This document shows positions 15,418 to 62,961 of a stretch of DNA of 64,000 nt, piece after piece. The position numbers were made by a program, and so were the translations under genes. The stretch comes from Halobacterium hubeiense (lineage in GTDB: Archaea; Halobacteriota; Halobacteria; Halobacteriales; Halobacteriaceae). Every line of letters starts with the position of its first letter. Position 1 is the first letter of the stretch. The stretch is from NCBI RefSeq assembly GCF_001488575.1, contig NZ_LN831305.1, positions 1 through 64,000 on the forward strand. The letters run 5' to 3'. The notes under the pieces are model-generated. The model was not told the DNA's origin. It saw only the letters and a list, made by a program, of their open reading frames with translations, and did no database searches.

Positions 15418-15525
15418 AGGTGTATACACACGCTTCTAATTCACTGCGATTACTGTTTCAAATCAAAACTATTTGCAGCAAACTCGTAAGCAATCAGGAA
15501 TTGAGTATACAGCTAATGCTAGACT

Positions 15526-43952: not shown

Positions 43953-44714
43953 ATGAGCAGCCCACAGCGGAGCACACAAAGTAGTCAATCAGGAAATACT
44001 GTCGTCGAAGCAATCAACATCCAAAAGACATACGACTCCTGGCTGCCGTTCTCTCGCTCTGTCGACGTTCTTGACAGAGCGACATTAGAGATCGGTAGTG
44101 GTGAAATCGTCGGCATTATGGGCGAAAACGGCAGCGGCAAGTCGACGTTGATGCAGGTTCTGGCTGGTGTGCTGGACTACGACGACGGCACCGTCGCTCG
44201 GTCGGGACGTATCGGTTGGTGTCCCCAGGAGCCGCGGCTCTACGACCGGCTGACCGTCGACGAAACATTCGAATTATTCGGCGAGGCCTACGAGATGTCC
44301 CCCAGCGAAGTCGACGCGGCGCGGTCGTGGTTGCTGACAGAACTTGATTTCGAGCGGTTCCGGGACCGGCAGGTTCGGAATTTGAGCGGTGGGAACAAAC
44401 AAAAGCTCAATCTCAGTGTCGCGCTGATGCACGAACCCGACCTTCTGCTGCTTGACGAACCATATACAGGCTTCGACTGGCAGACCTTCCAAGCATTCTG
44501 GGACCTCACCGAAGACCTCCGTGACCGCGGTGTCGGTATCGCCATTATCTCCCACATCATCAACGAACGTGACCGCTTCGACGTGATCTACGAACTTCAC
44601 GACGGCCACCTCCACAGGGAGGTCGTCGATGAGGAAGGCGGTCCGGCATCCACGCCAACCGAAGATAAAATCGACTGCGAACAACCCGATACCACCGGAG
44701 GCAAGTCCGAATGA
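43953..44714 (+). CDS. ABC transporter ATPase (triplet B)
   Basis: A 253-aa nucleotide-binding subunit. Walker A is GENGSGKST, the signature LSGGNKQK, Walker B LLLLDEP followed by YTGFDWQTF, and the switch His is in IISHIINE. It is the paralog of the ATPase at 14686, sharing IVGIxGxNGSGKSTLM and GWCPQEPxLYDRLTV. It starts the three-gene operon ATPase-permease-permease; the stop overlaps the next ATG by four bases. Substrate unknown. Confidence 0.9.
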   Translation: MSSPQRSTQSSQSGNTVVEAINIQKTYDSWLPFSRSVDVLDRATLEIGSGEIVGIMGENGSGKSTLMQVLAGVLDYDDGTVARSGRIGWCPQEPRLYDRLTVDETFELFGEAYEMSPSEVDAARSWLLTELDFERFRDRQVRNLSGGNKQKLNLSVALMHEPDLLLLDEPYTGFDWQTFQAFWDLTEDLRDRGVGIAIISHIINERDRFDVIYELHDGHLHREVVDEEGGPASTPTEDKIDCEQPDTTGGKSE

Positions 44715-45469
44715 GTCTACTCAGCCGATACGCCGCGGGCATCCGGGCGAGCGCACTGTCGTTCTTTCGCGAACCGCTGAACCTCGTGCTCTTAGTCGTG
44801 CTCCCGGCCGCCTCCATTCAGATCTTCGGCGTCGCGTACGGTCAGTTCCCCGAGTTCGGATTTCTGAACCTCCCCGCGTCGCTTGATGCCACCGCCAGAA
44901 TCACGGGCGCAACGTTTGCGACCGGGGCTCTGGCGGGAGTGCTCGGGCTCTTCCAACTCATCAGCGCACGTGATGCCGATCACCGCCTCTCTATCTGTGG
45001 GTTTCCCGCGCTAGATTTGCTCGTCGCCCGATTTGCGACGCTCGTCGTAATCAGCTTGGTGATTGCGGGCGTCTCCACGCTGACGCTAGTTGGACTGTTG
45101 TCCGAACCCGTCGCCTCGCCGCTGTTCGTGTTCATGGGCCTCACGCTCGTTGGTGTCATTTACGCGATGCTGGGAATCCTGGTCGGAGCAGTCCTCCCTC
45201 GAGCGCTAGAGGGCTCGCTCGCCCTGGTTATCCTCGCGGATATGGACAACGTCATTGCCAGTGGCATTTTCCCGATTCAGGACCGAATCACGCAATTGTC
45301 GCCGACCTCGTACGGCCACGAGGTGGTCACCCGCGCTGTCCTCGACGGGGAACTCGCGACAGGTGAGTTGCTACCGGCGCTGACAATCGTCGCAGTTCTG
45401 GGCGGCCTCGCAATACTGGCCTACACACACACTGTCGAACCTATCGTTTCGGGGGGTGTCGTGCAATGA
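44711..45469 (+). CDS. ABC transporter permease (triplet B, first permease)
   Basis: A 252-aa permease with six helices of the ABC-2 type. It starts SLLSRYAAGIRASALSFFRE, with the typical cytosolic lead into helix 1, and has LISARDADHRLSICGFPALD, matching the permease at 13956. It overlaps both neighbours by ATGA, showing translational coupling. With the next gene it would form the membrane channel of the exporter. Confidence 0.85.
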   Translation: MSLLSRYAAGIRASALSFFREPLNLVLLVVLPAASIQIFGVAYGQFPEFGFLNLPASLDATARITGATFATGALAGVLGLFQLISARDADHRLSICGFPALDLLVARFATLVVISLVIAGVSTLTLVGLLSEPVASPLFVFMGLTLVGVIYAMLGILVGAVLPRALEGSLALVILADMDNVIASGIFPIQDRITQLSPTSYGHEVVTRAVLDGELATGELLPALTIVAVLGGLAILAYTHTVEPIVSGGVVQ

Positions 45470-46200
45470 ATACCCGCATCACAACGGCTGTGACGATGGG
45501 GCTGCGGGAATTTCGTCGAACGCCGGCCCTGATCGGATTACTGATCGCCCTCCCGCTGTACTTCATCGGGGGATTCATGTACATCGTCCCGGAGGCGACG
45601 TTGACTATCCCGATTAGCGGCGAGTCAGTGACGGTTACGCTCTCGGAATTCGTCGCAGCGCTGGTGACGCCCGTCACCGCCGGGCTGCTGTCGGGTATCG
45701 TCGGACTGTTCCTAATGCAGTCCTCGAAAGCCGCCGACGACCGGCTTCGTCTGGCTGGGTATCGCTCGCGTGACCTCGTCGTCTCCCGTGTGAGTCTGCT
45801 CGCTGCTGGTGGCCTAATCGTCAGTGCTGTCTCGCTAGCAATCGTCCTGGTCGGATTTTCTCCGGTGTCGATACCTGCCTTCGTCGCCGCAACTGTGCTG
45901 ACGGCTCTGATTTACGGCGTCTTGGGTGTGATTATCGGTGTTTCTCTGAGTCGCTTGGCTGGGGTGTATGTCATGCTCTTCTTCCCGTACGTGGACATGC
46001 TGCTGTTCCAGAACCCGATGGCGACCGACTCCACAGCCTGGACGAAGGCGCTTCCGGGGTACTTTACGACGAAGGCGACGATGGACGCAGCCTTCACTCA
46101 AGGGCTGGACCTCTGGAACTTCATCGGCGCCGTGGGATACTTCACCATCGTCTTGCTCGTTGGTGTAGTCGTCTTCCACCGTGTCACCGCTATCGAATAA
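45466..46200 (+). CDS. ABC transporter permease (triplet B, second permease)
   Basis: A 244-aa permease with six helices. It has VTMGLREFRRTPALIGLLIA, SESVTV-type strand ISGESVTVTLSEFVAALVTP, and IVGLFLMQSSKAADDRLRLA, matching the permease at 13207 in order and content. NosY-like and ABC-2 permeases are the nearest types. It completes the second copy of the three-gene transporter set. Confidence 0.85.
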   Translation: MNTRITTAVTMGLREFRRTPALIGLLIALPLYFIGGFMYIVPEATLTIPISGESVTVTLSEFVAALVTPVTAGLLSGIVGLFLMQSSKAADDRLRLAGYRSRDLVVSRVSLLAAGGLIVSAVSLAIVLVGFSPVSIPAFVAATVLTALIYGVLGVIIGVSLSRLAGVYVMLFFPYVDMLLFQNPMATDSTAWTKALPGYFTTKATMDAAFTQGLDLWNFIGAVGYFTIVLLVGVVVFHRVTAIE

Positions 46201-46251: not shown

Positions 46252-47172
46252 TTAACCGAGTGTACCGTAAGCCGCTGCGTACGCGATAGCACCAGCTGTG
46301 ACGGCGGCGAGCCCTGTGACGAGCGTTTCACCGCGTCTGTGGTGATTGAATGGCCGTGTCGGAATTCCGACTCCGACGATAGCGAGCGCGAGAATGCTGA
46401 AGACGAATGGAGGAGCCGTGTGAATCGTTGGTGTCGGAATGACGAGGACCGCAGCCGCGTACCCGCTTCCAGCTACGGCACGCGGACGAAGCAGGCCACG
46501 GATTGGAATCTGCTGCAACCGCGTGTACGCGAATATAGCAAACCAAATCGTTCCAAGTTCAAGGAGGAATGCCGCTAGCAAGTGGGCCGTCGGGTCCGGA
46601 TGCAGCGCGACCCGACTGGTCATCAAGACAACGTCGAACGGATAGAGAAAGTCAGCAGGTCCGCCGGTAAAGAGGTCGCCGAACGGATGTGATACCAGAC
46701 CAATCAGCGCCGCACCAAACAGCCAGCGTGTTGCAGCTCCGTTTCGGCGGGCCCATTCCCCGATTCCAAGCCCTGAAGCGACGTACACGACTAGGACTCC
46801 CGCGTTCACGAGGCCGTCGACGACCGCTCCGATCGCGATGATGGACAGGAAGCCGCCGACAGCAACAATCCGGCTACGTCGTGCCGGGACATTCCATGCT
46901 GCGACAGCGGCAGCGAGAATCGCTCCGACAACAAGCGAGTGCGTCGCTCCTCGATGAATCGTATTCGCAGTCCCCCAGAACACATCAGGAGACACCGTCT
47001 GTATGGACCGTGCGAGCAACCCGATAGGGGCGTACACGATATCCACGTCGGGAACGAATGCGAACAGGCCGGCGATGATGCCCACTCGTATCGCTCGCTC
47101 ACGGCTACAACCCATCACCGTCGCTAGAAACGCGACGAGGGCGAATGCCCCGAGGCCGTGCCCGACGAACAT
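46252..47172 (-). CDS. YdjM/DUF457-type membrane metal-dependent hydrolase
   Basis: A 306-aa membrane protein of the LexA-regulated YdjM-like family. Motifs include VGHGLGAFALVAFLATVMGC at the N terminus, PDVDIVYAPIG, the signature IHRGATHSLVVG, and VSHPFGDLFTGGP. The His/Asp residues in these motifs are the proposed metal site. Relatives are linked to membrane lipid or phosphate hydrolysis, with no firm substrate. The start MFVGHG at 47172 removes a 65-residue upstream extension without family character. Confidence 0.85.
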   Translation of the reverse strand: MFVGHGLGAFALVAFLATVMGCSRERAIRVGIIAGLFAFVPDVDIVYAPIGLLARSIQTVSPDVFWGTANTIHRGATHSLVVGAILAAAVAAWNVPARRSRIVAVGGFLSIIAIGAVVDGLVNAGVLVVYVASGLGIGEWARRNGAATRWLFGAALIGLVSHPFGDLFTGGPADFLYPFDVVLMTSRVALHPDPTAHLLAAFLLELGTIWFAIFAYTRLQQIPIRGLLRPRAVAGSGYAAAVLVIPTPTIHTAPPFVFSILALAIVGVGIPTRPFNHHRRGETLVTGLAAVTAGAIAYAAAYGTLG

Positions 47173-47438
47173 AGACTTCCTACTTCGCTTACGGCAATAA
47201 GCGGCGCGTGACACGGTGACACACGAATCGCTCAACGGCACTTGTCGTCCAGCCGATTGTGAATCCGGATCCTCAAGCCCCCGCCTAGGGAGGTTTCTGA
47301 TTACAAAGTGGTCAGGCGCATAGAGTCCCACCCCCATCGCCGTCAGATAGACTGCTGCGAACTGCACTGCGTTATACGTCTCGTCTTCGAAGTGAGCCGG
47401 TGAAGTTTAGTCACCGGGATCGTCTCACACACACGAAC

Positions 47439-48029
47439 TCATGGTACCTGCTCGTACTGCATTTTTTCTCGGCTGGAAAGCCAGCCGGTGAGGAATGTGG
47501 TTAGCAGGCAGAGTAGAATGAGCGTTGCGACGCCAAGATGCGTAGTGACGACGAACGGTTGGAGGTTTTCCGTCACCGTTAATCCACCCAGGAGGACCTG
47601 TGTCGGAAGGAGGACCAGTGCTCCCGTCGCGGACCATGTGACGAGTCGATTGTTGGGATACGCAAGCCACGCTCCGATCGTCGTCCCCAAGATGATGAAG
47701 CCGGCTGTCATCGCCAGTCCACGGTGTGCCCACTCCGCGAAGATTTGGAGTGTGGAATACGAGGAACTGGCAACGATCCCAGAGTGGAGAAAGGGGACCC
47801 ACGTTCCGTAGCACGTTGGCCAGTCTGGGCACGATAATCCAGCGCCGATCGCGCTCGTATATGCGCCGAGGAGCATCACGGCATAGGTTACGACGAGTGT
47901 GACCCCTGATAGATGCGTATATGTGACGGGGGACTCCCGGAAGCCGTATCGAACTCGCGTGACGATTGAGGATACCTGCATAGTATCTTGAAGTGAGCCG
48001 TGCGTTGTTACCGTGTCATCCTTTTTCAT
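47439..48029 (-). CDS. ctaA: Heme A synthase-like protein (CtaA/COX15), short archaeal form
   Basis: A membrane protein of about 196 aa with four to five helices, from the CtaA/COX15 family. Motifs are LGAYTSAIGAGLSCPDWPTC, with the conserved Cys pair, EWAHRGLAMTAG with the heme-ligand His, and VVTTHLGVATLILL with a second His. It converts heme O to heme A for cytochrome oxidases. The short form suits archaeal CtaA. The start may be at 48029 or 47981. No oxidase subunits are in the window, so its client lies elsewhere. Confidence 0.88.
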   Translation of the reverse strand: MKKDDTVTTHGSLQDTMQVSSIVTRVRYGFRESPVTYTHLSGVTLVVTYAVMLLGAYTSAIGAGLSCPDWPTCYGTWVPFLHSGIVASSSYSTLQIFAEWAHRGLAMTAGFIILGTTIGAWLAYPNNRLVTWSATGALVLLPTQVLLGGLTVTENLQPFVVTTHLGVATLILLCLLTTFLTGWLSSREKMQYEQVP

Positions 48030-48201
48030 CTGACTCGGTAAACCGTATCGGCGGGTTCCTACTTGTTGGGAATCAGCCCCGTACTCAACTAGGCAGTGCC
48101 GCATTTCTAATAAAGCGCGAAGACGCAGTTCTTACTGCAATCGAAGAATCAGAACCGTTTCAAACCGCCCAACAATAGTACGAGATAACTGGCTGAGGGT
48201 T

Positions 48202-48468
48202 ATGACAACTATCCAGACTTCAGTCCCACCGAACGACTCGCCAGAGATTTGCCAGTACTGCGGTGACCCCTTCCCCACTGTGGAACGTCTCACCCTTCAT
48301 CGGGGCCTCGAACATTGGCCTGACATCGATGAGGCAGAACGAACAGCCTTCCACGATGCACGAGCAGACGAACAAGATGCCTTGAGTTCGTTTCGGCTGC
48401 GGGCGCTCGCCTGCCTCGTCGCAGTATACTTCGGGTTCCTATTTCTCTATGCTATCTTCGCCATTTAA
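48202..48468 (+). CDS. Zinc-finger plus membrane-helix protein (DUF7410-like)
   Basis: An 88-aa protein with a C2H2-like finger (ICQYCGDPFPTVERLTLHRG, then LEHW) and one C-terminal membrane helix (CLVAVYFGFLFLYAIFAI). I link it tentatively to haloarchaeal DUF7410. The next gene begins 20 bases before this stop, so the two are coupled. A finger tethered to the membrane suggests an assembly or docking factor for a membrane complex; inferred. Confidence 0.75.
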   Translation: MTTIQTSVPPNDSPEICQYCGDPFPTVERLTLHRGLEHWPDIDEAERTAFHDARADEQDALSSFRLRALACLVAVYFGFLFLYAIFAI

Positions 48469-49957
48469 CGCCGAGAGCCCCGAGACTGACGAGTCCACGG
48501 CAAAGACAACCGACCCGAAGGAGGGCCGTTCAAGCAGCGTGAGCGGTTCCGCTCTCCGCGTCGGAGTGCAGGCCCTTGCGTGGGCAGCAATATTGATTGT
48601 TCTCGTCGAGAGTGTCACCGCCGCTAACGGAATGACGCTCTCCAAACAGCCCCGGGAAACGTTAGCTGTCCCTCGCTGGCTGTATCTGGCAACAGGGGGA
48701 GCTACAATCGGTGCCTCGGCACTCCTTGCTAGCTTCGTCACCGACCGCGCATTCATCTACGCGCTGCACTCGTGGTCCGTTCAGCTGCCTGGCGTCCCAG
48801 CTATCCGGCGTGGAGCCTCCAGACTCGGCCAGCTACTTGCCCTCGCTACGCTCGGTCTCATGGTCTATGTCGGGTACAGTGGCCCCCAACTCCCAGCTGC
48901 GAGTCTCACAGTTCTCGTAACGTTTGTCGGGATTCGTGGTGGACTGCCGGTCGTCGCGTATCTGATCGGGAATCCCTGGCCTGCGATTAACCCGTGGCGT
49001 GCTCTCACGACGTTCCTCCCAGAAGGCTTCATCGAATATCCCGACTCGTTCGCTCGCTGGCCAGCAGTCGTGGGCGTCCTTGCGCTTGTTTGGGTGGAGG
49101 TAATCTTCCCGGTCAGTACCGTCCCGCGCGTGCTGGCGAGTGCGATCCTCGGTTATTCACTGTGCACGGTTACTGGGGCAATCGTCTTCGGCTCTGATGC
49201 GTGGTTCAAGCACGCCGACCCGCTGGCTGTTTTGTTCCGGTGCTACGGGACGGTTGCACCAATTCAAATCGTAGACGGCTCGTTAGAGGTGTCGCTTCCC
49301 GGGAACAACCTCGCAGATTCAGCCATCGTAACTGACGAGTCCGACGTCGCCTTTATCATCGCCCTCGTTTGGGAACTCACGTACAGTGGATTCATCACGA
49401 CGACCGCTGGCGCGCAGACGATTAGCGCCGTTGTGGAGTCGCCACTCGGCGCAGTACTTCCGACTGTACCGATGGCTATACTCGTCTATACAGTTCTGTT
49501 CCTCGCGGGATACGTCCTGTTCCTCACAGCCTATTGGTATGCTGGAAAGGCCGCTCGACGACTGACAAACACGTACGTCACCAGCCGTTCGATCGCGTTG
49601 CGACTCGCTCCACCACTGTTGGCTATCGCAGCTGGCTATCACCTCGCCCACTACGCCAATCTGGTCGTCTCGTTGAGTCCCGCACTTGCGATTGCAGCCG
49701 TGTCCCCACTCACCCCGCCTGCAAATCCATTAGTCCTCGCTCCTCCTGGTTGGTTCACCGGCCTCAGCGTCGCGTTCGTATTGATCGGGCACCTGCTCGC
49801 CATCTGGGAAGCACATGCGGCCGCGTACGATCTGTTCCCGAGCCGTCTCGTCGCGATTCGTAGCCAGTACCCGTTTATTGTTGTGATGATCGGATATACG
49901 GTGATCAGTCTCTGGATTCTCTCCCTCGCTGGCGCGACACCACCGTATCTAGGGTAA
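48449..49957 (+). CDS. Conserved polytopic membrane protein
   Basis: A 502-aa protein with about twelve membrane helices. The central segment LIGNPWPAINPWRALTTFLP recalls a family sometimes annotated as fenitrothion-hydrolase-like, whose true role is unknown. His residues in AGYHLAHYANL and LIGHLLAIWEAHAAAY are possible heme or metal ligands in helices. It overlaps the finger-membrane gene and is near ctaA and the Dsb pair, so a role in maturation or transport for a redox enzyme is possible. Confidence 0.7.
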   Translation: MLSSPFNAESPETDESTAKTTDPKEGRSSSVSGSALRVGVQALAWAAILIVLVESVTAANGMTLSKQPRETLAVPRWLYLATGGATIGASALLASFVTDRAFIYALHSWSVQLPGVPAIRRGASRLGQLLALATLGLMVYVGYSGPQLPAASLTVLVTFVGIRGGLPVVAYLIGNPWPAINPWRALTTFLPEGFIEYPDSFARWPAVVGVLALVWVEVIFPVSTVPRVLASAILGYSLCTVTGAIVFGSDAWFKHADPLAVLFRCYGTVAPIQIVDGSLEVSLPGNNLADSAIVTDESDVAFIIALVWELTYSGFITTTAGAQTISAVVESPLGAVLPTVPMAILVYTVLFLAGYVLFLTAYWYAGKAARRLTNTYVTSRSIALRLAPPLLAIAAGYHLAHYANLVVSLSPALAIAAVSPLTPPANPLVLAPPGWFTGLSVAFVLIGHLLAIWEAHAAAYDLFPSRLVAIRSQYPFIVVMIGYTVISLWILSLAGATPPYLG

Positions 49958-50125
49958 CCGAATCCCCACCATAGACGGTCGGATTCTCGCCTCGTAGAAG
50001 AGTCGAGCCAGTGCAACAGAGACCCCAAAGCTTCGACCCTTACGGGACTCCTGAGAGAACACACTCCAAACGAACGCGACAGCACCAAAGCAATCTTACT
50101 GTGAAGAACCAAACGGATAATTATC

Positions 50126-50848
50126 ATGCGCTCTTCTAACGTTACTGAGGCGTTGTCGTCTCGAATGTCGCGGCGACAGGTCCTCGCAACGGGGAGCATC
50201 GTTGCTCTGAGTGGCTGTCTTGGTGGTGGTTCGAATAGCTCGACTGACGGGAACGTGAACGAAGACGTTGCGAATGCGCCTCTCTCGAACTCACCAGATT
50301 CGTTGACGTACGCGACGATGGGGTCGAGTGACGGACCGACGATAACCTACTATGGAAACTGGAAATGCCCCTACTGTGCCGAGTTCAGTACCGGCACTCT
50401 CGGCGACTTCGTCACCGACTACGTCGAGAACGGGAACGTCAATATCCAGTTTCGAGCGCTGGCGTACATCAACGGCGAACCGTTCCTCGGGGCCGATTCT
50501 CCTCGAGCTGCGCGTGCTGGGCTGGCAGTTTGGAACGTGAACCCCGAGACGTACTGGCGCTACCATGAGCACGTCTTCGCAAATCAGCCTCCTGAAGGTG
50601 AAACGTGGGCGACGGCTGAAAAGCTCCTCTCGTTCGCTGAATCCGCGGGCGTGGGTGATCTCGATCGCGTCCGAGAGCAACTCGACGAGGGAATGTACGA
50701 ATCCGAAGTTCAAAACACCACTGACGCGGCTGCATCAGCAGGAGTCTCCGGAACACCCACGCTCGTCATCGACGGCGAAACGGTCAACCCGTTAAGCGAC
50801 GAGTCACGGGCTCGAACACTGATTGAAGGCCTCACGGATGCCTCTTGA
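50126..50848 (+). CDS. DsbA-like thiol oxidoreductase, lipoprotein
   Basis: A 240-aa secreted thioredoxin-fold protein. The Tat-type signal (SRRQVLATGSIVALSG) ends in a lipobox Cys31. The active site is CPYC (Cys81-Cys84) in YYGNWKCPYCAEFS, and the cis-Pro loop is GVSGTPTLVIDG. It would form or shuffle disulfides on extracytoplasmic proteins. It overlaps the DsbB-like gene by 11 bases, giving a complete DsbA/DsbB pair. An ATG at 50165 is an alternative start. Confidence 0.93.
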   Translation: MRSSNVTEALSSRMSRRQVLATGSIVALSGCLGGGSNSSTDGNVNEDVANAPLSNSPDSLTYATMGSSDGPTITYYGNWKCPYCAEFSTGTLGDFVTDYVENGNVNIQFRALAYINGEPFLGADSPRAARAGLAVWNVNPETYWRYHEHVFANQPPEGETWATAEKLLSFAESAGVGDLDRVREQLDEGMYESEVQNTTDAAASAGVSGTPTLVIDGETVNPLSDESRARTLIEGLTDAS

Positions 50849-51269
50849 CCGGGACCGAGTTGTACTCGGTGTGGCGACACTGGTTGCCATGATCGCTACG
50901 TTGGGGAGCCTCTGGTTCAGTCTCGGGTTGGGGTTAGTCCCCTGTGACCTCTGCTGGTATCAACGCATCCTGATGTACCCACAAGTAGTTATTCTGGGGG
51001 TGGCGACGCTCGAATCACGACTCAACGTCTGGCGGACTGTTTTGCCGTTGTCAGCAGCCGGAATCATCATCGCTGCGTATCAATCTTACTTACAGGCGAC
51101 AACCACAACATGTGGCTTTGAAGGAGCCTGTGCCGTGGTCCAGTGGCGCTCGCCAATACTCAGAGTGACCATTCCGAACCTCTCGCTGATTGCGTTCGTA
51201 CTGGTGACGGCGCTACTCCTGTCCTCACTCTTAGTGGACAGGAATGCTGGGATGCAAGTAGACGAGTGA
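50838..51269 (+). CDS. dsbB: DsbB-like quinone-linked thiol oxidase
   Basis: A 143-aa four-helix membrane protein that reoxidises DsbA with quinone. The first Cys pair is in LVPCDLCWYQRILMYPQ and the second in CGFEGACAVVQW, both in the expected outer loops. Arg in CWYQRI is the conserved quinone-site residue. It overlaps the DsbA gene. The start at 50838 (MPLDRDRVVLG) is preferred over five residues earlier. Confidence 0.93.
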   Translation: MPLDRDRVVLGVATLVAMIATLGSLWFSLGLGLVPCDLCWYQRILMYPQVVILGVATLESRLNVWRTVLPLSAAGIIIAAYQSYLQATTTTCGFEGACAVVQWRSPILRVTIPNLSLIAFVLVTALLLSSLLVDRNAGMQVDE

Positions 51270-51286
51270 GTGAGTGCTCGGCGGAA

Positions 51287-52354
51287 TCAAACAGTGAATT
51301 CAACAGTGGACATCTGCATGAATGCGGTTTCGTAACCGTCGTGGCGCGACACCTGGGGTGGTGTCTCAACGCGAACCACAATGGTATCATCCCGCCTGAT
51401 GGTCTTTGCGGTCGTTCCGTAGTAGTAGCCGAGGTCGGGGTCGATTGTACCGTCAAGTCCCGTTTCCAATACAGTGTCCCCGTTACGCTTGACGACCATC
51501 GAGAGCGACATTCCAGGGAGTAGAACGCGATTATAGGGCGTACGCGGAGAGACAACGAGATACGGTCCGTCCGTCCCCGGGAATCGTCGTGCTGTGGAGA
51601 CGAGACTCGCGCAGAACACGGCACCGTCAGCGGACTGCTCGTCGAGCAATCTTCCGGGGAGTTGTTCCTTGGGCGGGGCGACTGGAGCTGGCACGCCGTC
51701 CATCTGCATCAGGTCTACCGTCCCCCGCGTGCCTGCCTTCTCATCGAGACGGCGAATCGGAAGGTCGTACGTTTCAGACGGCTCGAAGGTAAATTGGAAC
51801 TGTGCGGTCCGCGTCTCTGTAAACCGACGTTTGAACGGGCGGGTTCGTGCTGCCTGAACGGGCGCAGTCCGAACCGTTGCCTCATACTCGCCGCTCCCCG
51901 ACAGTGCCACGTTGTCCCCGTAGTGGAACCCCATATTTGGGGAGAGCATCGACCACAGATTCGTCGTTGAGACATTCCCCTCCTCATTCTGGATATCCAC
52001 TGACACCGCTGTCGGGAGCACCGTTTCGGATTCGGCATCCCAGACGCTCGCCATCAAATGCAGCGAGTCATTCGACGAGACAACGACTTTTGTTTTGTTC
52101 GTCCCGGTCACCGTCCAGAATCGGTGGGGGAACGAGTGCATCAACGCGACGCCGATACCATCGGCGGTCGTCGTTTCGTATACGCCCATCCCCTCAACAA
52201 TCGCCGGATAGTAGACACCGTCTGGCCGGTCTTCGACGAGCGGTGGATCTCGCCACGCGGACTGTGTCTCGAATCCGAGTCGCTGAAGACACCCGGAGAC
52301 GCCAGCTACGCCGACCAGCCCGCCCGTGGTTTTTAGAAACCGCCGCCGGTCCAT
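51287..52354 (-). CDS. P19/Tp34-like metal-binding lipoprotein
   Basis: A 355-aa secreted lipoprotein (RRRFLKTTGGLVGVAG then SGC lipobox). The central region resembles the P19/Tp34 family of Fe/Cu-binding periplasmic proteins: GIGVALMHSFPHRFW, then SMLSPNMGFHYGDNVALSGS and GEYEATVRT. In P19 a Met and several His bind copper; here the Met and His in NMGFHYGD are conserved. A longer C-terminal domain (SLVSTARRFPGTDGPYLVVS) is extra. I tentatively equate it with haloarchaeal DUF7350 proteins. It lies beside nosD, on the same strand, and the Dsb pair. Confidence 0.75.
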   Translation of the reverse strand: MDRRRFLKTTGGLVGVAGVSGCLQRLGFETQSAWRDPPLVEDRPDGVYYPAIVEGMGVYETTTADGIGVALMHSFPHRFWTVTGTNKTKVVVSSNDSLHLMASVWDAESETVLPTAVSVDIQNEEGNVSTTNLWSMLSPNMGFHYGDNVALSGSGEYEATVRTAPVQAARTRPFKRRFTETRTAQFQFTFEPSETYDLPIRRLDEKAGTRGTVDLMQMDGVPAPVAPPKEQLPGRLLDEQSADGAVFCASLVSTARRFPGTDGPYLVVSPRTPYNRVLLPGMSLSMVVKRNGDTVLETGLDGTIDPDLGYYYGTTAKTIRRDDTIVVRVETPPQVSRHDGYETAFMQMSTVEFTV

Positions 52355-52542
52355 ATTCTAGAATTCTCTCCGGGATTGAGTAGGCGTTGCGGTTTGCGAG
52401 AAGACACAGGGACCATCGCCGCAAGCCTTGTTTTGTATGACTCCAGGAGAGTGTATCTTTGGTTAGCCACTCATCAAGCAGGGGTATCAGCAAGGGGGTT
52501 GGTCGACCTGCCCGCCCGCCCAAACCGGAGTCACCGTAACCG

Positions 52543-54492
52543 CTAGAAGCTGAAATCCCAGTCGTCTTCATCGTCGAACTGTCCAGGGGGATACTGAGTG
52601 TCATCGAGTCGCTCCAAAACCGCCGGTCGCACTGGACTTGCTCGTGGAGCGGCATCCACGACACCACCAAAGCGGATCCCGGGCATCGTCTGCTGCAATT
52701 GACGTAGCAATTGAAGCGCAGGTGACCGTGCCAATGTCGGTGCACCAGTCCCTCTCTCCGCGACCATTCCGACCGGGCCTGTAACCCTGAAAGACCGCGA
52801 CAGGGAACCGTCACCGTCGGTATCGATACCGGGTGCGCCCCGCCAGTAGTTCCCCTTCCAGACGTGTAACACGTTGAACCGTGCTGTCGCGGCGTACCGC
52901 CGGTTATACGCGATGTCGTTGTCGTTGACGCGGTTCGTCGGGAACAACGACATCGCTCGAATGCCGACCCGGTTGAATGCCGCGACGTTTTCCTCATACA
53001 CTGAATATTGGCCTTGCACGACGACGCCGTGCTGGTTATGCGTCACAACATTCTCCGCGACGTAGCTCGACCGCCCGAACACAAGAACGCCGTTCTTGCT
53101 GTTCGTGACGGTATTCCCTGTCACAATGTTTCGGTTCGATCGGTCGTGGATGTAGACGCCAACGTACGTGTCCTCGATATCGTTGTCAGCGGCGAACGCA
53201 CCCTGAGCGAACACGCTGAACACGCCGATCATCATCCCCTCCATCGAGGAGTCGCGGACGGTGAACGACTGCGTGTCGTGTGCGAAGACACCAACTTTCC
53301 CGCCGTAGAACGTCGAGTTCTGAACTAGTGCGGGCGCGCCGAGAATCGAGACCCCGAGGAATCCATCCTCCCAGTCTCGCGTTCCCCGAACTGTGAGGTT
53401 CGTGACGGTGAGATTCGGGCTATTCCGCGCGATAATTCCATTCGCGCGCGTTTGGATTTGAACGTCGGCAACCAGCGACCGCGTGGACGCCTCGAAGACG
53501 ATACCTGCGTCGCCGTAGCCGTGCGTCGTCCAGTAGCGTTCCCGGAACGACCCGTTGCGGACGGGGACACTCGTAATGTTCGCTTGGCCGCGAGTTCGCA
53601 CTGTACCGATACCGGACAGCGAAACGTCCGTAATTGCGACGCGTGAGGCGTTCACGGAGACGACGCTGCGATTCTCGTCACCGATGATGCGCGTCTGGTT
53701 TACGCCACTGCCGCTGATCGTCAGGGGCTTGTCTACCGTGACGTCGGAGACAGAGTGATTCCCGGCTGACAGCTGGATGGTCGTATTGGGGGGGGCGCGC
53801 TGGATTGCTGCGGTCAGTGACTCGTTCGGTTCTACCGTCGTCGAAACTGGGCGTTCGAGTAGCGAGCGGGCACGTGCGCTCGTCTCGTTCGCCTGCTCGC
53901 TTCGTGCATCACTGGTGCGCTCCCATTCAGCGGTCGTCCGGGCCGCACTTCGGACATCGAGTTGTTTGACTGCGTCCCATTGTTTGATGCGACCACCGTA
54001 CTGTTGAGCGAATGCCGTTGCATCGTTCCGGTTCGAGAACGGCACGATTGCTTGCTTCCGCGTGGGGATACTGGCCGTACTGTTGACGACGAAGTACGCC
54101 GCATCAGCTGGTACCCACTCTGGATCTGCGTCTTGCGGTGTTCTGAGTAATCCATCGTCGCCAACGTAGACGCCGGTGCCAGAGAAATCCGAGACGTACA
54201 CTGCCATCGGCCGCCCAAATTCACGTTCCGTGCTCTCTTGCAATCCCGCGACCATGGACGTGATGCCGTAGTAGCCAACGGTGAATTTGAACTGAGAGAA
54301 CGATACCTGCCCGGTCGGCAACGCAATCGTCGAGTCGGCGGCTTGAACGACGACGCTTTCTGGAACACCCGTTGATTTCGTATCTGACATCGGGACCGCA
54401 GCCGCCTGCTGGCCACCCCCGCTCACGGCGAATGGCCCGACGACCGCCGCGAACACGAGGAGGCCAGCAGCAGCCACGTGCCAGAATTCCAT
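52543..54492 (-). CDS. nosD: NosD-like beta-helix protein
   Basis: A 649-aa secreted protein. A signal helix (EFWHVAAAGLLVFAAVVGPF) leads to a NosL-like front part and then a right-handed parallel beta-helix with repeated Asn/Val/Gly turns, for example NRNIVTGNTVTNSKNGVLVF and VVTHNQHGVVVQGQYSVYEE. This is the NosD/CASH form that helps load copper sulfide centres of nitrous oxide reductase, with NosF and NosY. The C terminus is acidic (FDDEDDWDFSF). NosF and NosY are encoded divergently 78 bases away. The front part contains PxxYFVVN-type motifs related to NosL. Confidence 0.9.
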   Translation of the reverse strand: MEFWHVAAAGLLVFAAVVGPFAVSGGGQQAAAVPMSDTKSTGVPESVVVQAADSTIALPTGQVSFSQFKFTVGYYGITSMVAGLQESTEREFGRPMAVYVSDFSGTGVYVGDDGLLRTPQDADPEWVPADAAYFVVNSTASIPTRKQAIVPFSNRNDATAFAQQYGGRIKQWDAVKQLDVRSAARTTAEWERTSDARSEQANETSARARSLLERPVSTTVEPNESLTAAIQRAPPNTTIQLSAGNHSVSDVTVDKPLTISGSGVNQTRIIGDENRSVVSVNASRVAITDVSLSGIGTVRTRGQANITSVPVRNGSFRERYWTTHGYGDAGIVFEASTRSLVADVQIQTRANGIIARNSPNLTVTNLTVRGTRDWEDGFLGVSILGAPALVQNSTFYGGKVGVFAHDTQSFTVRDSSMEGMMIGVFSVFAQGAFAADNDIEDTYVGVYIHDRSNRNIVTGNTVTNSKNGVLVFGRSSYVAENVVTHNQHGVVVQGQYSVYEENVAAFNRVGIRAMSLFPTNRVNDNDIAYNRRYAATARFNVLHVWKGNYWRGAPGIDTDGDGSLSRSFRVTGPVGMVAERGTGAPTLARSPALQLLRQLQQTMPGIRFGGVVDAAPRASPVRPAVLERLDDTQYPPGQFDDEDDWDFSF

Positions 54493-54570
54493 AGATGGCG
54501 ATACGGGAGGAGCCACAAAGAATGCTGGGGCAGTACACTTTTTCGAGTGGCACGGAAACCATAATACGTA

Positions 54571-55341
54571 ATGGGTAGTCGTGAGGCTCCTAACCGCGGT
54601 GACAACGATGCTGCGACGGCCGCGTCAGCCGTCGTCGAAGCGTCGGAACTCTCGAAATCATTCGGTGACGTCGAGGTTCTCTCGGAACTCTCCTTCTCAA
54701 TTCCAGATGATGCAGTTACGGCGATTATTGGGCCGAATGGCTCCGGAAAGACCACGCTCGCAGAACTCGTTACGGGCGTAGAGAGCCCGACAGCTGGCGA
54801 ACTCGCGCTCCATGCTGAGGGTGAGCGACCTGTCGGGTATCTTCCCCAAGACCCGCGGTTCCAGCCCTCGGCCACGGTCCGAGAGACGGTTGCGTTCTAC
54901 GCAGCACTGCTCGCTAGCGAGACCGATGTCGACGCCGCACTCGCTCGGGTCGGCCTCGAAGCCGCGGCCGACCGCCGAACGGACGCACTCTCCGGAGGTA
55001 TGCGCCGCCTCCTGGGAATTGCGGTGAGCCTTCTGGGGGCCCCAGACCTAGTCATGCTCGACGAACCGACGAGCGGTCTCGACCCGGAGATGACTCGCCA
55101 CGTGTATGACGTGATCGCGGGGTTGACCGAGCGCGACCAAGCCGTCGTGTTGACGACCCACGACCTTTCGCGCGCAGCAGACGCCGATTACATCCTTGTA
55201 ATGTCTGATGGCAACATCGTCTCGGCCGGGTCCCCGGCCGCTGTGCTTGCAGACACGGAGACGGAGACCCTAGAGGACGCGTTCGAGACAGCAGTAAGCG
55301 GTCGTACGGTCACATCCGCGGGAGGCGGTAATCGTGAGTGA
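54571..55341 (+). CDS. nosF: ABC ATPase NosF-like
   Basis: A 256-aa ABC ATPase. Walker A is GPNGSGKTT, the signature LSGGMRRLL, Walker B LVMLDEPTSGLDPE, and the switch His is in LTTHDLSRAA. Together with the NosY-like permease and NosD it forms the transporter used in copper-centre assembly. The stop overlaps the permease start by eight bases. It is distinct from the two ATPases of triplets A and B, which have LSGGN. Confidence 0.9.
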   Translation: MGSREAPNRGDNDAATAASAVVEASELSKSFGDVEVLSELSFSIPDDAVTAIIGPNGSGKTTLAELVTGVESPTAGELALHAEGERPVGYLPQDPRFQPSATVRETVAFYAALLASETDVDAALARVGLEAAADRRTDALSGGMRRLLGIAVSLLGAPDLVMLDEPTSGLDPEMTRHVYDVIAGLTERDQAVVLTTHDLSRAADADYILVMSDGNIVSAGSPAAVLADTETETLEDAFETAVSGRTVTSAGGGNRE

Positions 55342-56143
55342 CGCCACCCAGCAGTTTACTGCCGTCGTCGAACGGGAGGTGCGAGCACTCTCTCGGTCTC
55401 GGTCAGTTTGGCTGCTCGCAATCGGGTTCTTCGCACTGGTGGTGGCGATTGCGGCGCTCGGCGGGCAGGCCGGCTACGTCCCGCTCGTGCTGGCGCTCCT
55501 TACGCCAATCGAGGTTTTAGTACCGGTACTGGTGGTTGCACTCGGGTATCGGGCGATTCTCGGTGACCGGTTACGAGGCGAACTGAAAATCCTCGATACG
55601 TTCCCGATAACGCCCATCCGGTACGGACTCGGCGTCTACTGTGGCCGACTCGGAGTTGCGCTCGGGGTTGTCGTCGTGACGCTATTCGCTGCAGGGTTCG
55701 TCGTTCCACTCTCGGGCGACACCCCGAACGTGCTCGCACAACCGGGCGGACTAGACTCACCGGTATACTACGCGCGGTTTGTCGCGTTGACAATTCTCTT
55801 CACAGGCGTCGTCCTCGCCATCACGCTATTGATCTCGTCGGTGGCTCGGTCTGCGCGTCGCGGGCTCGTGTCGGCGGTCGGCCTATTACTCGTGCTTGTG
55901 GTCGGATTCGACCTCGTGATAATTGCCGGAGTTGGACAGGGCTGGATTGTCGAACGAGGGCTAAGCGAAGCGCTTGCCGCGAGTCCATTAAGCGCCTACC
56001 GTGGCCTTGTGATGACGTACGCTGTCGAACCGGCAGTGACGATGCCGGTTCGTGCAGCCTCACCAATTGCAAGCGTGTTTTCGCTGGCTGTATGGACGTC
56101 GCTTTCCCTCCTCACTGCCGCAGGTCTGACTGGGATTGAGTGA
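55334..56143 (+). CDS. nosY: ABC permease NosY-like
   Basis: A 269-aa permease with six helices and a GTG start. VEREVRALSRSRSVWLLAIG leads into helix 1, followed by EVLVPVLVVALGYRAILGDR with the conserved Gly-Asp-Arg, and LISSVARSARRGLVSAVGLL. It forms the membrane part with the NosF-like ATPase. The set nosD, nosF and nosY is complete but nosZ is not in the window. Confidence 0.9.
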   Translation: MSDATQQFTAVVEREVRALSRSRSVWLLAIGFFALVVAIAALGGQAGYVPLVLALLTPIEVLVPVLVVALGYRAILGDRLRGELKILDTFPITPIRYGLGVYCGRLGVALGVVVVTLFAAGFVVPLSGDTPNVLAQPGGLDSPVYYARFVALTILFTGVVLAITLLISSVARSARRGLVSAVGLLLVLVVGFDLVIIAGVGQGWIVERGLSEALAASPLSAYRGLVMTYAVEPAVTMPVRAASPIASVFSLAVWTSLSLLTAAGLTGIE

Positions 56144-56205
56144 CCGCCGAACTGTTGTACGAAGTCGCGTCAACAAAGCCTTCGTGAGCAGTAGCTGTGG
56201 TGGGG

Positions 56206-57240
56206 TCATGTGAACGTGAGATACGCGATAGCGAACTGAACAGCGTTGTACGTGCCGTGAACGACGACCGGCGCGAAGAGGTCGTCTGTCTGCTCGTACG
56301 TAGCTCCGAGTACGAGTGCGACTCCGAAAACTCGGGCGAGCGTGACGAGGATAGCGCCCGGTGTGGCACCCGTCCCTCCGTACGCGAGGATGTGGCTGGC
56401 AGCAAACACGAACGACGCGGTGATCACAGCACTCCGACGCGAATACGCACCGTATAGGTACTTCTGGAGCGCATTTCGCGCGAGTAGTTCCTCACCCGGG
56501 GCGACAACGACGAACGAAAGGACGATTAGCGGAAGCAGGATCTCGGGAGTTGTTTTGGCTGCCTCGATGAGAGAGTGCGACGTTTGTGGCAGTGAGAATA
56601 CAGCGACCGCGGCAGCCATCAGTACGTGGAGCGTGAAAATCGCGAGAATTCCCGCTGCTGCCACGATAAGGTCGCGGCGGGTTACCGTACTCACGTCGAT
56701 ACTACTGTTGGTGGATTTAATGAACACGACACCAACTATCGCATAGGCGATACTGGCGACAGCAGTGGACACTGAAACGCGGACTATTGGTGTTGAGGGG
56801 ACAAGAGAGACGGCTATACTATTGAGGAGGCCCCCAATGAGGAGTGCGAGCGCGGAGACGGCGAGTGCGAGGAGAGCTCGACGCTCCCGTATTTTGACTG
56901 CCGACTGGTTCAATTCGGTGATGACAGCACCACCCACTCCCAGCGCACTGAAGCCAGCCAGCAGCGAGACAATCGGTCCGAGTACTGTTGCTGTTTGAAG
57001 CTCGATGACCGCAGCCGCTGCTCCGATCGTCAGTCCAGCGGTGGCCGCCGTTGCGGCAGTGTCGACCCACGGCGGAGCAAGTCCGTGACGTCGGACAGTG
57101 AAAGCCAGAACGGCGATCGCTCCGAACACACGAGTAGCTTGTGCCGTGAAGTCTGTTGGTGCAGGCCACGAGAGGAACGTCCCGATTAGTCCGATCCCAG
57201 CAAGTACAACCCCAACTGAGTGCGCGTACTGTCGTTTCAC
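56206..57240 (-). CDS. CPBP-family intramembrane metalloprotease
   Basis: A 344-aa membrane protease-like protein (CAAX/Abi family). The EExxxR motif is in VAPGEELLARNALQKYLYG, the next His is in FAASHILAYGG and the third motif in APVVVHGTYNAVQFAIA. Eight helices are likely. Members process prenylated or other membrane proteins or act in immunity to peptides; no substrate can be inferred here. It lies last in a minus-strand run from 58922 down. Confidence 0.9.
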   Translation of the reverse strand: MKRQYAHSVGVVLAGIGLIGTFLSWPAPTDFTAQATRVFGAIAVLAFTVRRHGLAPPWVDTAATAATAGLTIGAAAAVIELQTATVLGPIVSLLAGFSALGVGGAVITELNQSAVKIRERRALLALAVSALALLIGGLLNSIAVSLVPSTPIVRVSVSTAVASIAYAIVGVVFIKSTNSSIDVSTVTRRDLIVAAAGILAIFTLHVLMAAAVAVFSLPQTSHSLIEAAKTTPEILLPLIVLSFVVVAPGEELLARNALQKYLYGAYSRRSAVITASFVFAASHILAYGGTGATPGAILVTLARVFGVALVLGATYEQTDDLFAPVVVHGTYNAVQFAIAYLTFT

Positions 57241-57825: not shown

Positions 57826-58125
57826 TCAGGCGGTAGCGTCGTCGTATCGGCTGGCATTCGAAATGGCGAGCAGTCCGAGTCCGAGAAGTCCACCTACTGC
57901 CACTAAGCCGAAAATCGCTAAATTTGGCGGATTCAGTTCGAAAACGATTGGGCCGATTTTACCGTACTGCACTGCCGGCCCACCGTCGGTAAGCGGCCCC
58001 GACGGCCCACCGTTTCCATAGACAATAATTCCCAGCACGTACCCGAAGATGCCTGCGACAGCAACGGCGCTGAGATACATCCATAGTACGACTCCGCGCC
58101 CGTTGGTCACCTGTCTGTCTGTCAT
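57826..58125 (-). CDS. Two-helix membrane protein (DUF7520-like)
   Basis: A 99-aa protein: MTDRQVTNGRGVVLWMYLSA, VAVAGIFGYVLGIIVYGNGG, then a Gly/Pro loop, and FGLVAVGGLLGLGLLAISNA in helix 2. I link it tentatively to the DUF7520 group often found with haloarchaeal oxidase genes. Start at 58125 gives the natural N terminus. It is part of the minus-strand satellite run. Confidence 0.7.
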   Translation of the reverse strand: MTDRQVTNGRGVVLWMYLSAVAVAGIFGYVLGIIVYGNGGPSGPLTDGGPAVQYGKIGPIVFELNPPNLAIFGLVAVGGLLGLGLLAISNASRYDDATA

Positions 58126-58245
58126 TCGTCTAGGCGTATCAGTGAACTCCAGATGCAACAATCGCTCGTTTTCCAATATCGCTCAGCCACAGATACCAAG
58201 CGCAAAGGGTCTGCGGGGACATTCACCCTCTCCGAAAGCCGGATA

Positions 58246-59090: not shown

Positions 59091-60020
59091 ATGACGGAAC
59101 CACAAGAAAACCGCAGTCCAAAAGATCGAACAAATTGCCCGGAGTGTGGGGGACAGATTCGGTACAATAATTCACAGAGTGAGGTAGCATGTCAACAGTG
59201 TGGGTTGGTCATCGAAGAGGAAACTATCGACCATGGGCCAGAGTGGCGGTCGTTTACTGACGAACAACGCCAGAAAAAGAGCCGAGTCGGCGCACCGACG
59301 ACGCCACTGATGCACGATAAGGGACTCAGCACGACTATCAGCTGGCAGGACAAGGATGCGCGCGGCCAACATCTGTCAAGCAGAAAACGGGAGCGACTAC
59401 GACGGCTCCGCCGGTGGGACGAACGATTCCGCACGAAAGATGCCGCAGAGCGGAACCTCAAACAGGCATTCGACGAGATTGATCGGATGGCGTCGGCACT
59501 GGGCTTGCCTGAGGCAGTCCGTGAGACAGCGGGGGTCCTCTATCGGTGTGCCGTCGAGGAAGGGTTACTTCCGGGTCGTTCTATCGAAGGGATGGCAACG
59601 GCTGCACTGTACGCGAGCGCGCGGCAACATCAAACACCGAGATCTCCGTTCGTAGTCGAGACGGTAAGCAGAGTCGAAAAGAAACGCTTTCAGCGGGCAT
59701 ACCGGTATCTCTCTCGGGAGCTCAAGCTTGAAATCGAACCGGAATCTCCGGACCAGCATCTACCGCGGCTCGCATCAACACTTGACGTAACTGACGAGGC
59801 ACTTCGCCGTGCGCGAGACCTGCTCGACGTTGCCCAGCAGAACGGCATCCATAGTGGCAAAAGCCCGGTCGGAATGGCGGCATCAGCGCTGTATGCGGCG
59901 ACGTATTTGACGAACGAGAAACTCACCCAGGAGACCGTGAGTTCAGCGGCAAGCGTGAGCAAGGTCACGATTCGAACTCGCTATCAGGAACTGTTGGACG
60001 TATACGCTGAGCACAAGTGA
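59091..60020 (+). CDS. tfb: Transcription initiation factor TFB
   Basis: A 309-aa archaeal TFIIB homolog that recruits RNA polymerase to TATA-bound TBP. The zinc ribbon has Cys16, Cys19, Cys34 and Cys37 (CPECGGQ, then CQQCG). A B-reader/linker with EWRSFTDEQRQKKSRVGAP follows, then two cyclin repeats (about 120-205 and 215-305) with GRSIEGMATAALYASARQ and GKSPVGMAASALYAATYL. All parts are present. Haloarchaea carry several TFBs that set different promoter choices. This copy is next to winged-helix genes in an accessory area and is probably a specialised paralog. Confidence 0.97.
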   Translation: MTEPQENRSPKDRTNCPECGGQIRYNNSQSEVACQQCGLVIEEETIDHGPEWRSFTDEQRQKKSRVGAPTTPLMHDKGLSTTISWQDKDARGQHLSSRKRERLRRLRRWDERFRTKDAAERNLKQAFDEIDRMASALGLPEAVRETAGVLYRCAVEEGLLPGRSIEGMATAALYASARQHQTPRSPFVVETVSRVEKKRFQRAYRYLSRELKLEIEPESPDQHLPRLASTLDVTDEALRRARDLLDVAQQNGIHSGKSPVGMAASALYAATYLTNEKLTQETVSSAASVSKVTIRTRYQELLDVYAEHK

Positions 60021-60396: not shown

Positions 60397-60774
60397 ATGG
60401 CGGATGATGCAACGACGCCGGACGACCAGCCGCCCCCGGAACTTGTCCTTGACGCGCTAGATGACCCCGATTGCCAATCAATACTCCGCAAAACCGCCGA
60501 GCCAATGACTGCTACCGAACTCACTGAAGCGTGTGACATTCCTCGTTCGACGCTGTACCGAAAGCTTGACCAACTCAGTGATGCCGCACTCCTGCGAGAA
60601 CACGACAAGATAAACCCCGACGGTGGGCGAACGGCGTACTATCAGCGGAATTTTGAGAACGTGAACATCACGATTGACCAGGATGACACGTTTTCAGTGA
60701 CAATCGACCACAGACAGCAAGGAACTGATGAGCGGCTTCGAGATATCTGGTCGAAGATGGGTGACGAACTATGA
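60397..60774 (+). CDS. Winged-helix regulator (ArsR-like)
   Basis: A 125-aa regulator. LVLDALDDPDCQSILRKTAE, then MTATELTEACDIPRSTLYRK and LDQLSDAALLREHDKINPDG form the winged helix; GGRTAYYQRNFENVNITIDQ is the wing and dimer strand. The C terminus ERLRDIWSKMGDEL matches the style of the regulator at 28610. It overlaps the next membrane gene by four bases. The regulator plus membrane-protein pair repeats the one at 28610/28964. Confidence 0.85.
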   Translation: MADDATTPDDQPPPELVLDALDDPDCQSILRKTAEPMTATELTEACDIPRSTLYRKLDQLSDAALLREHDKINPDGGRTAYYQRNFENVNITIDQDDTFSVTIDHRQQGTDERLRDIWSKMGDEL

Positions 60775-61049
60775 ATGAGATCATGGCTGCGATTGTCGCT
60801 GTGAAAGCCCTCATACTGGGGCTTGGCGGGGGAATTACGTATATCGCGCACAGAGCGTATCATCGGACGGGCGACCCCTCACTCGGACTGCTGCGGGTTG
60901 GCTTCGGGATTGTGACGTTCGGTGCATTGTTCACTGGTGCTATCAATATGTTCTATTCCGTATCGCTCCCTCTCGGCGTCCTCGTTAACAGCACCTTCGT
61001 GGCCGCTGGTCTCGCGGTGATTCTGTATTCGCTGTATGTACAAGACTGA
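60771..61049 (+). CDS. Small three-helix membrane protein (DUF7521-like)
   Basis: A 92-aa membrane protein: MNEIMAAIVAVKALILGLGG, GITYIAHRAYHRTGDPSLGL, and LAVILYSLYVQD at the end. It matches the protein at 28964 in order and ends. ATGA overlap with the regulator gene shows coupling. Probable membrane partner or sensor for the regulator; inferred. Confidence 0.78.
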   Translation: MNEIMAAIVAVKALILGLGGGITYIAHRAYHRTGDPSLGLLRVGFGIVTFGALFTGAINMFYSVSLPLGVLVNSTFVAAGLAVILYSLYVQD

Positions 61050-62413: not shown

Positions 62414-62608
62414 TTACGCTCCTTGCATGTCCATTGGCCGGAGCCAATGATACCACACAAACAGTACCATCCCACCGTATCCCGCTGCCCAGACAACCTG
62501 GCTGAGCGTATCTGCACCCATCTCAGAGAGGAAGTAGCTAGTCACCCCGGGGATAGCGATACCCGCGAAGACGATCGCTCCGAATACGACCCGGTCGTCG
62601 AGGTCCAT
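62414..62608 (-). CDS. Small two-helix membrane protein, oxidase-satellite type
   Basis: A 64-aa protein: MDLDDRVVFGAIVFAGIAIP, then GVTSYFLSEMGADTLSQVVW and WYHWLRPMDMQGA. Two helices; the RPMDMQG end looks like a family found near haloarchaeal oxidase genes. Its ATG overlaps the upstream stop (TAATG) so it is coupled to the DUF7541-like gene. Function unknown. Confidence 0.7.
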   Translation of the reverse strand: MDLDDRVVFGAIVFAGIAIPGVTSYFLSEMGADTLSQVVWAAGYGGMVLFVWYHWLRPMDMQGA

Positions 62609-62961
62609 TAGGCGACACCTCGCCATCGAACCAGTTGACGGCCAACAATCCCGGTTGTAATGCCGATACCACCAGCTATCAACAGTGAAACACCGCGGAA
62701 GCTCGCTTCGTAGCGAAGGAGAAGCAGTCCGCCCACCGCTGCGAGTGTACTCAGCACAGCAATCACACGAAGTGGTCGCGTAACGTGTTGGGACTCTGTG
62801 AGAATTCCTGCAACAGAGCCAATAAACAGTAGCAGGCCGCCGATGGTTACCGGTCGTAGTCCGAACACGACACCGATCTCGGACGTAACGAGCGCGAGCG
62901 CTACCAGTGGTGGCCAGGGGCTCGCGCGGGGATAGGCGTCACTCAAGCCGGCGTCACTCAT
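62608..62961 (-). CDS. Four-helix membrane protein (DUF7541-like)
   Basis: A 117-aa protein: MSDAGLSDAYPRASPWPPLV, then VFGLRPVTIGGLLLFIGSVA, GILTESQHVTRPLRVIAVLS and GGIGITTGIVGRQLVRWRG. The ASPWP start and GILTE motif match my recollection of haloarchaeal DUF7541 proteins of oxidase clusters. ATGA overlap with the ATPase upstream places it in the same operon. Confidence 0.72.
   Translation of the reverse strand: MSDAGLSDAYPRASPWPPLVALALVTSEIGVVFGLRPVTIGGLLLFIGSVAGILTESQHVTRPLRVIAVLSTLAAVGGLLLLRYEASFRGVSLLIAGGIGITTGIVGRQLVRWRGVA

Follow-up and report, generated by a model that had tools for sequence, protein, structure and literature searches.

Introduction

The closest described relatives of the system treated here are the bacterial NosDFY-NosL apparatus, exemplified by Pseudomonas stutzeri NosD (PDB 7o0y), and haloarchaeal clusters in which NosL and NosD are joined in one protein. 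A Haloferax mediterranei plasmid (pHME322) carries such a NosL+NosD protein and Haloferax volcanii has nosFY without nosZ (PMC9240420), so that the nosZ-less state is not new in itself. We analyzed a cluster of genes at positions 46252-57240 of a 64,000-nucleotide stretch of Halobacterium hubeiense DNA, hereafter the window, which comprises bases 1-64000 of the plasmid-sized contig C4 (112,459 bp) in a genome of 3.13 Mb, four contigs and 99.8% completeness. The cluster shares with the bacterial apparatus a NosD beta-helix, a NosF-like ATPase, a NosY-like permease and a NosL-like domain, but its NosL is fused and without Cys, nosZ is not linked to it, and a His/Met/Met set in NosD is replaced. 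With the haloarchaeal clusters it shares the NosL-NosD fusion (NosLD), usually without adjacent nosZ; the common haloarchaeal form, however, keeps the His/Met residues, includes a standalone NosL lipoprotein and has its genes in one direction, whereas the form in the window is divergent and belongs to a clade of its own.

Two other haloarchaeal arrangements resemble further parts of the cluster. Cytochrome oxidase (cox) loci have in common with the window CtaA, a C2H2 zinc-finger protein, a membrane protein of 12 transmembrane (TM) segments (12TM), DUF7541 and DUF7520, but the window lacks cox1, cox2 and cox3, and its genes are rearranged and joined with a P19-like protein, DsbA/B and NosLD-NosFY. 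The copper island of the Haloarcula marismortui plasmid pNG600 and its sisters likewise holds halocyanin, a multicopper oxidase (MCO), a CPBP protease, DsbB, DsbA, CtaA and TFB, together with CDF, a P-type ATPase, a DUF7541-like protein, C2H2, 12TM and P19, but has no NosLD-FY in the stretches examined and a different gene order. A preliminary description of the window had named nosDFY-like genes, DsbA/B, a P19-like protein, CtaA, a 12-helix protein and a zinc-finger membrane protein, all of which are present and intact, and had suggested that the set may mature a copper enzyme other than NosZ. We found not one pathway but three modules that travel separately and are combined here as a mosaic: NosLD with NosF/NosY, C2H2-12TM-P19, and CtaA-DsbA-DsbB-CPBP-MCO.

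Results

Helper genes of the oxidase locus recur on a plasmid

The cox locus of the same genome (L117, C1:605001-625000) has the order ABC ATPase, DUF7546, CtaA-CtaB fusion, cox2-like, cox3, 12TM, C2H2, DUF7541, a small gene, cox1 and DUF7520. CtaA, C2H2, 12TM, DUF7520 and DUF7541 of the window are paralogues of its accessory genes and 27-67% identical to them: C2H2 is 54% identical to the paralogue beside 12TM, DUF7520 67% identical to L117:10554-10844, and DUF7541 60% identical over 58 amino acids. Besides the CtaA-CtaB fusion, a further CtaA match lies on the chromosome (contig C1). Contig C4 is a metal-resistance plasmid carrying spare copies of helper genes usual beside cytochrome oxidase; metal-handling genes are abundant in the window (five P-type ATPases, a CDF protein and an SO_0444-type efflux protein), and the cluster's closest named relative lies on a plasmid of Halobacterium noricense. 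Purifying selection acts throughout the cluster genes (ratio of nonsynonymous to synonymous substitution rates, dN/dS, 0.05-0.19). Because of this selection, and because other genomes show parts of the same arrangement, the cluster appears to be more than a chance assembly.

We examined 25 chromosomal 12TM loci: 16 belong to cox clusters (four of them picked because an MCO lay near), 4 are accompanied by P19, Sco1 and a TlpA-like protein, while 5 fit neither setting; an additional P19-12TM-Sco1-TlpA locus (L156) brings such loci to five in all. CtaG/Cox11 (PF04442) and Caa3_CtaG (PF09678) were found in 0/116 haloarchaeal genomes, with positive controls, 12TM itself matches neither family, and a search of the H. 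hubeiense genome did not reveal Sco1. Because 12TM is linked to cox loci and CtaG/Cox11 was not found in the 116 genomes, it is a candidate copper-insertion factor, a possible role in copper delivery being suggested by that genomic linkage.

Conserved pairing of 12TM with P19

12TM and P19 are a conserved pair across haloarchaea. They are neighbors in at least 45 genomes of several families, a lower bound drawn from the best ~150 matches of each, and usually lie within 500 bp of each other, often convergently; only in the window and in genome G129 does the DsbA/B pair stand between them. Residues E217, D257, H401, H448, H456 and M480 of 12TM are invariant among 16 sequences whose identity goes as low as 28%, and 12 C2H2 homologues adjoin 12TM. 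Of the 293 genomes, 77 gave no match to 12TM. A search of the PDB with the AlphaFold2 model of 12TM (predicted local distance difference test score, pLDDT, 77; predicted template modelling score, pTM, 0.79) gave no significant match, which hints only weakly at a new fold because the model is of medium confidence. The 12TM family was not described in the literature searched.

P19 belongs to PF10634, and HYGDN is the motif at which its profile matches FtrA/P19 structures. An FTR1/FetM-type iron permease, a possible partner for P19, is not in the operon, where the neighbor is 12TM; FTR1 elsewhere in the genome was not searched for. At L083:13978-15357 and L164:5178-6557, a DUF7405 Tat-signal protein adjoins the P19 (DUF7350) gene, and on pNG600 a Tat-signal protein likewise adjoins a second P19, so this pair may recur.

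A derived NosLD clade away from nosZ

A plain NosD had been expected. The NosD domain is there (PF05048, 58.9 bits, cut-off 23.6), but the protein is a NosL-NosD fusion (PF05573 plus PF05048), which scores 141.7 bits against TIGR04247, under the cut-off of 300. Together with the ABC_tran domain of NosF and the ABC2_membrane_2 domain of NosY, it gives the composition of NosDFY.

The window has neither nosZ nor an oxidase gene, as the preliminary description had stated, but this does not extend to the genome. A genome-wide search located nosZ on the chromosome at C1:49377, accompanied by its own nosD (C1:51309), nosF and halocyanin, and not directly outside the window, and located four COX1-family genes, all on C1. 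The plasmid-sized contigs C3 and C2 each hold another NosLD-F-Y set. The C3 set (L012:12093-18368, G000:C3) is of the window type, its NosLD being 81% identical to that of the window, and directly adjoins genes apparently encoding cytochrome bd subunits; the C2 NosLD is about 37% identical and has a separate NosL. Window NosF is 82% identical to the C3 copy and 37% identical to the nosZ-linked NosF, and window NosY is 86% identical to the C3 copy.

Of 293 genomes of the order, 161 had NosLD (profile E <= 1e-30) and 79 had nosZ; both were present in 59, NosLD alone in 102 and nosZ alone in 20. In the listed pairs on the same contig, NosLD and nosZ are separated by about 20 kb or more. Of the NosLD loci compared, 27/42 include a separate NosL lipoprotein, typically in the co-directional order NosL-NosLD-NosF-NosY, and none was seen beside the window NosLD. 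Two tandem NosLD genes precede a single NosF-NosY at L074:7991-11939, and by coordinates close NosLD pairs also occur in G112, G222 and G242.

In nine loci, that of the window among them, NosLD is divergent from NosF-NosY, and these nine sequences form one branch of a 45-sequence tree (support 100/100, long stem of 0.59 changes per column). The residues at window positions 433, 435 and 457 are His, Met and Met in 36/36 other NosLD, in P. stutzeri NosD (7o0y fragment) and in the nosZ-linked chromosomal NosD, and may be copper ligands. None of the nine (0/9) keeps them, the positions being occupied by Phe, by Val, Phe or Leu, and by His or Glu, respectively. Normal NosD-type copper handling therefore cannot be assumed for this clade. 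Its fused NosL domain in the window protein also has no Cys and hence no Cys-Gly-Met motif, which standalone NosL of other clusters mostly keep. Selection on the window-type genes is purifying (dN/dS 0.12-0.13 for NosLD, 0.11-0.15 for NosF and 0.09 for NosY), which argues for changed function and not for decay. A literature search found no report of the clade.

The CtaA-DsbAB-CPBP-MCO module on sister plasmids

On sister plasmids, which include Haloarcula marismortui pNG600 and plasmids of Halobaculum and Halorussus aquaticus, CtaA, DsbA, DsbB, CPBP and MCO form a co-directional operon in this order, seen in L098, L100, L102 and pNG600. Its MCO is about 89% identical to that of the window, and the CPBP protein between DsbB and MCO is a smaller homologue of the window CPBP; halocyanin with 81-94% identity lies near MCO in L097, L098, L100, L102 and L112. 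TFB, the helix-turn-helix (HTH) regulator, CDF, P-type ATPase, DUF7541-like protein, C2H2, 12TM and P19 stand elsewhere on these islands. In the window, the genes of the island are dispersed from 37 to 64 kb.

CtaA has the COX15-CtaA domain and an extracellular Cys pair, C92/C98 (CPDWPTC), and DsbA and DsbB have the CXXC motif and the two Cys pairs, respectively, of a disulfide-forming couple. Activity of Bacillus subtilis CtaA depends to an important degree on the corresponding pair (PMC8239418), which makes the CPDWPTC pair a plausible DsbA/B substrate. The nearest solved relatives of the MCO are two-domain laccase-type oxidases (2zwn, 3g5w), and its best match among NCBIfam models is to copper-resistance oxidases (TIGR01480). 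Identification of the MCO as NirK was not supported, given 63 bits against TIGR02376 (cut-off 296) and its laccase-type solved relatives. The chromosome carries a paralogue (73%) some 5 kb away from a gene resembling quinol NO reductase.

Where the modules meet

NosLD-NosFY was seen together with the other modules only in Halobacterium loci (G000, G129, G146). In H. noricense (L054/L188), C2H2-12TM-P19-NosLD-NosFY is otherwise syntenic with the window and has no DsbA/B, CtaA or MCO around it; the full gene set is therefore not an obligate unit. A single co-inherited operon was rejected on this ground and because the sister plasmids show no NosLD in the stretches examined. Partial combinations occur elsewhere: an MCO about 70% identical to that of the window adjoins window-type NosLD in L058 and L059, from two genomes that belong to another family, have an apparent quinol NO reductase gene beside NosY and gave no nosZ match; three more genomes (L072, L168, L169) have 12TM close to NosLD; and P19 is near NosLD in L083/L164.

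Other features of the window

Coordinates are collected in Table 1. In addition, an ABC ATPase and two ABC-2-type permeases are present twice in identical order (13207-15429 and 43953-46200). Paralogous multi-TM proteins at 37141-38472 and 61068-62285, with a conserved Cys-rich motif (GTCTCGCCGPLVAK and GACTCGCCGPLVAK, respectively) and without a Pfam family, travel with the copper island. A TFB paralogue (59091-60020), an HTH regulator (60397-60774) and a small TM protein (60771-61049) recur together on several sister islands and are possibly a dedicated transcription factor set.

Table 1 Position, strand and supporting matches of the genes in and around the cluster.
Feature	Position	Strand	Matches and remarks
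P-type ATPases	2200, 21018, 30247, 34311, 62958
SO_0444-type efflux protein	6890
Halocyanin-type blue copper protein	39112-39675	+	PF00127
Two-domain MCO, candidate client	41323-42477	-	PF07731/PF07732/PF00394
CDF	42716
YdjM-type hydrolase	46252-47367	-
CtaA, compact heme A synthase	47439-48104	-	PF02628, 88.3 bits, cut-off 29.9
C2H2 zinc-finger protein, one TM segment	48202-48468	+	weak DUF7410; precedes 12TM
12TM membrane protein	48449-49957	+	no Pfam/NCBIfam match
DsbA-like lipoprotein, CPYC	50126-50848	+	PF13462, PF01323
DsbB-like protein, CDLC plus C97/C103	50823-51269	+	PF02600
P19/FtrA-like lipoprotein, conserved His/Met/acid set	51287-52354	-	PF10634, 27.2 bits, cut-off 21; PF24041
NosL-NosD fusion, derived divergently oriented clade	52543-54516	-	PF05573, residues 67-185; PF05048, 398-559
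NosF-like ABC ATPase	54571-55341	+	PF00005
NosY-like ABC-2 permease	55334-56143	+	PF12679 (ABC2_membrane_2)
CPBP (CAAX) protease	56206-57240	-	PF02517
DUF7520 small membrane protein	57826-58176	-	PF24364; paralogue of gene after cox1
DUF7541 protein	62608-62961	-	PF24396, 115 bits; paralogue of gene between C2H2 and cox1

Discussion

We consider it slightly more probable than the reverse that the cluster is a mobile mosaic, carried by a plasmid, of factors that assemble copper enzymes outside the cytoplasm and handle copper for them, and not a NosZ maturation set. Likely clients are the MCO of the plasmid and the aa3-type oxidase encoded on the chromosome. The MCO had been proposed as a client before, and this is plausible from the sister-plasmid operon and the MCO-NosLD neighbors; the chromosomal oxidase is an equally good candidate because CtaA has its oxidase partner there and C2H2, 12TM, DUF7520 and DUF7541 are paralogues of cox-locus genes. 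In such a scheme P19 would capture copper (or iron) outside the membrane and hand the metal to 12TM, whose invariant His, Met and acidic residues would pass it to apo-enzymes. DsbA/B would oxidize disulfides of clients, for instance the Cys pair of CtaA, CtaA would supply heme A for the chromosomal oxidase, and NosLD-FY would spend ATP on loading or release at an extracytoplasmic client. A bolder proposal, which we hold only tentatively and with the balance against it, is that 12TM and C2H2, fed by P19, are the missing copper-insertion factor of haloarchaeal oxidases in the place of CtaG/Cox11, with the plasmid as a portable spare and NosLD-FY having changed its cargo or client.

Several observations weigh against a copper-assembly mosaic. 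The loss of conserved His/Met in the NosD clade weakens a copper role for the NosLD module, and the H. noricense cluster, by lacking DsbA/B, CtaA and MCO, indicates that the modules may be only loosely connected. Bacterial homologues of P19 serve iron uptake. A 12TM relative on a Rhodococcus plasmid (L187:5737-7095) lies near genes for methanol dehydrogenase, a MoxR ATPase and a VWA protein and not near cox.

Two less probable alternatives are detoxification and iron uptake. Under the first, which we judge unlikely, the MCO, P-type ATPases, CDF, P19 and NosFY would oxidize, sequester or export copper or other heavy metals, and CtaA and DsbA/B would be spare copies of copper-sensitive functions. 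The density of metal-resistance genes in the window, the TIGR01480 match of the MCO, the plasmid location of the islands and the presence of an organomercurial lyase gene close to the cluster of H. noricense are all consistent with it, but it hardly explains the cox-locus accessory genes C2H2, 12TM, DUF7520 and DUF7541, and 12TM-P19 also occurs beside Sco1/TlpA on chromosomes. The second follows the Campylobacter FetMP-FetABCDEF system, in which a P19-family protein is found with a permease, an ABC transporter and thioredoxin-like proteins (PMC10783030). Read in this way, 12TM would be the permease of P19, NosFY the ABC transporter and DsbA/B the thioredoxin-like partners, a similar composition, and PF10634 is an Fe2+ transport family, with P19 annotated as an iron transporter. 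However, the ABC unit of the window is NosFY-like and comes with NosLD, the membrane partner of P19 is 12TM, which like C2H2 is tied to cox loci, DsbA/B belongs to the CtaA-MCO operon and interrupts 12TM-P19 only in the two genomes named above, and most P19-12TM loci examined have no NosLD. We therefore regard iron uptake as rather improbable.

A chance neighborhood, that is, unrelated modules without a common function on a recombinogenic plasmid, is also quite unlikely. The modules are found apart in other genomes, and the insertion of DsbA/B between 12TM and P19 has so narrow a distribution that it fits such a history, but every module concerns extracytoplasmic metal or cofactor assembly, and separate families show MCO-NosLD (L058, L059), 12TM-NosLD (L072, L168, L169) and P19-NosLD (L083) proximity. 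That the plasmid encodes a further maturation set for the NosZ of the chromosome is very improbable, and this reading was rejected, as the preliminary description had anticipated: NosLD is somewhat enriched with nosZ (59/79 vs 102/214 genomes, uncorrected for phylogeny), but the chromosomal nosZ has its own nosD/nosF, 102/161 genomes with NosLD have no nosZ, the two genes keep their distance in the listed same-contig pairs, and the window clade has lost residues that Pseudomonas NosD and nosZ-linked NosD retain.

Judging from the altered NosLD clade, machines of the NosDFY type may have been put to use outside nitrous oxide reduction, and therefore nosD or nosF alone should not be taken to indicate N2O reduction. 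The 12TM family, because of its invariant His/Met/acid residues, its place in cox loci, its Sco1 neighbors elsewhere and its pairing with P19, is a specific, testable candidate for the loading of copper into archaeal cytochrome oxidase in the absence of CtaG/Cox11, and the plasmid set points to a candidate copper-insertion factor for archaeal respiration.

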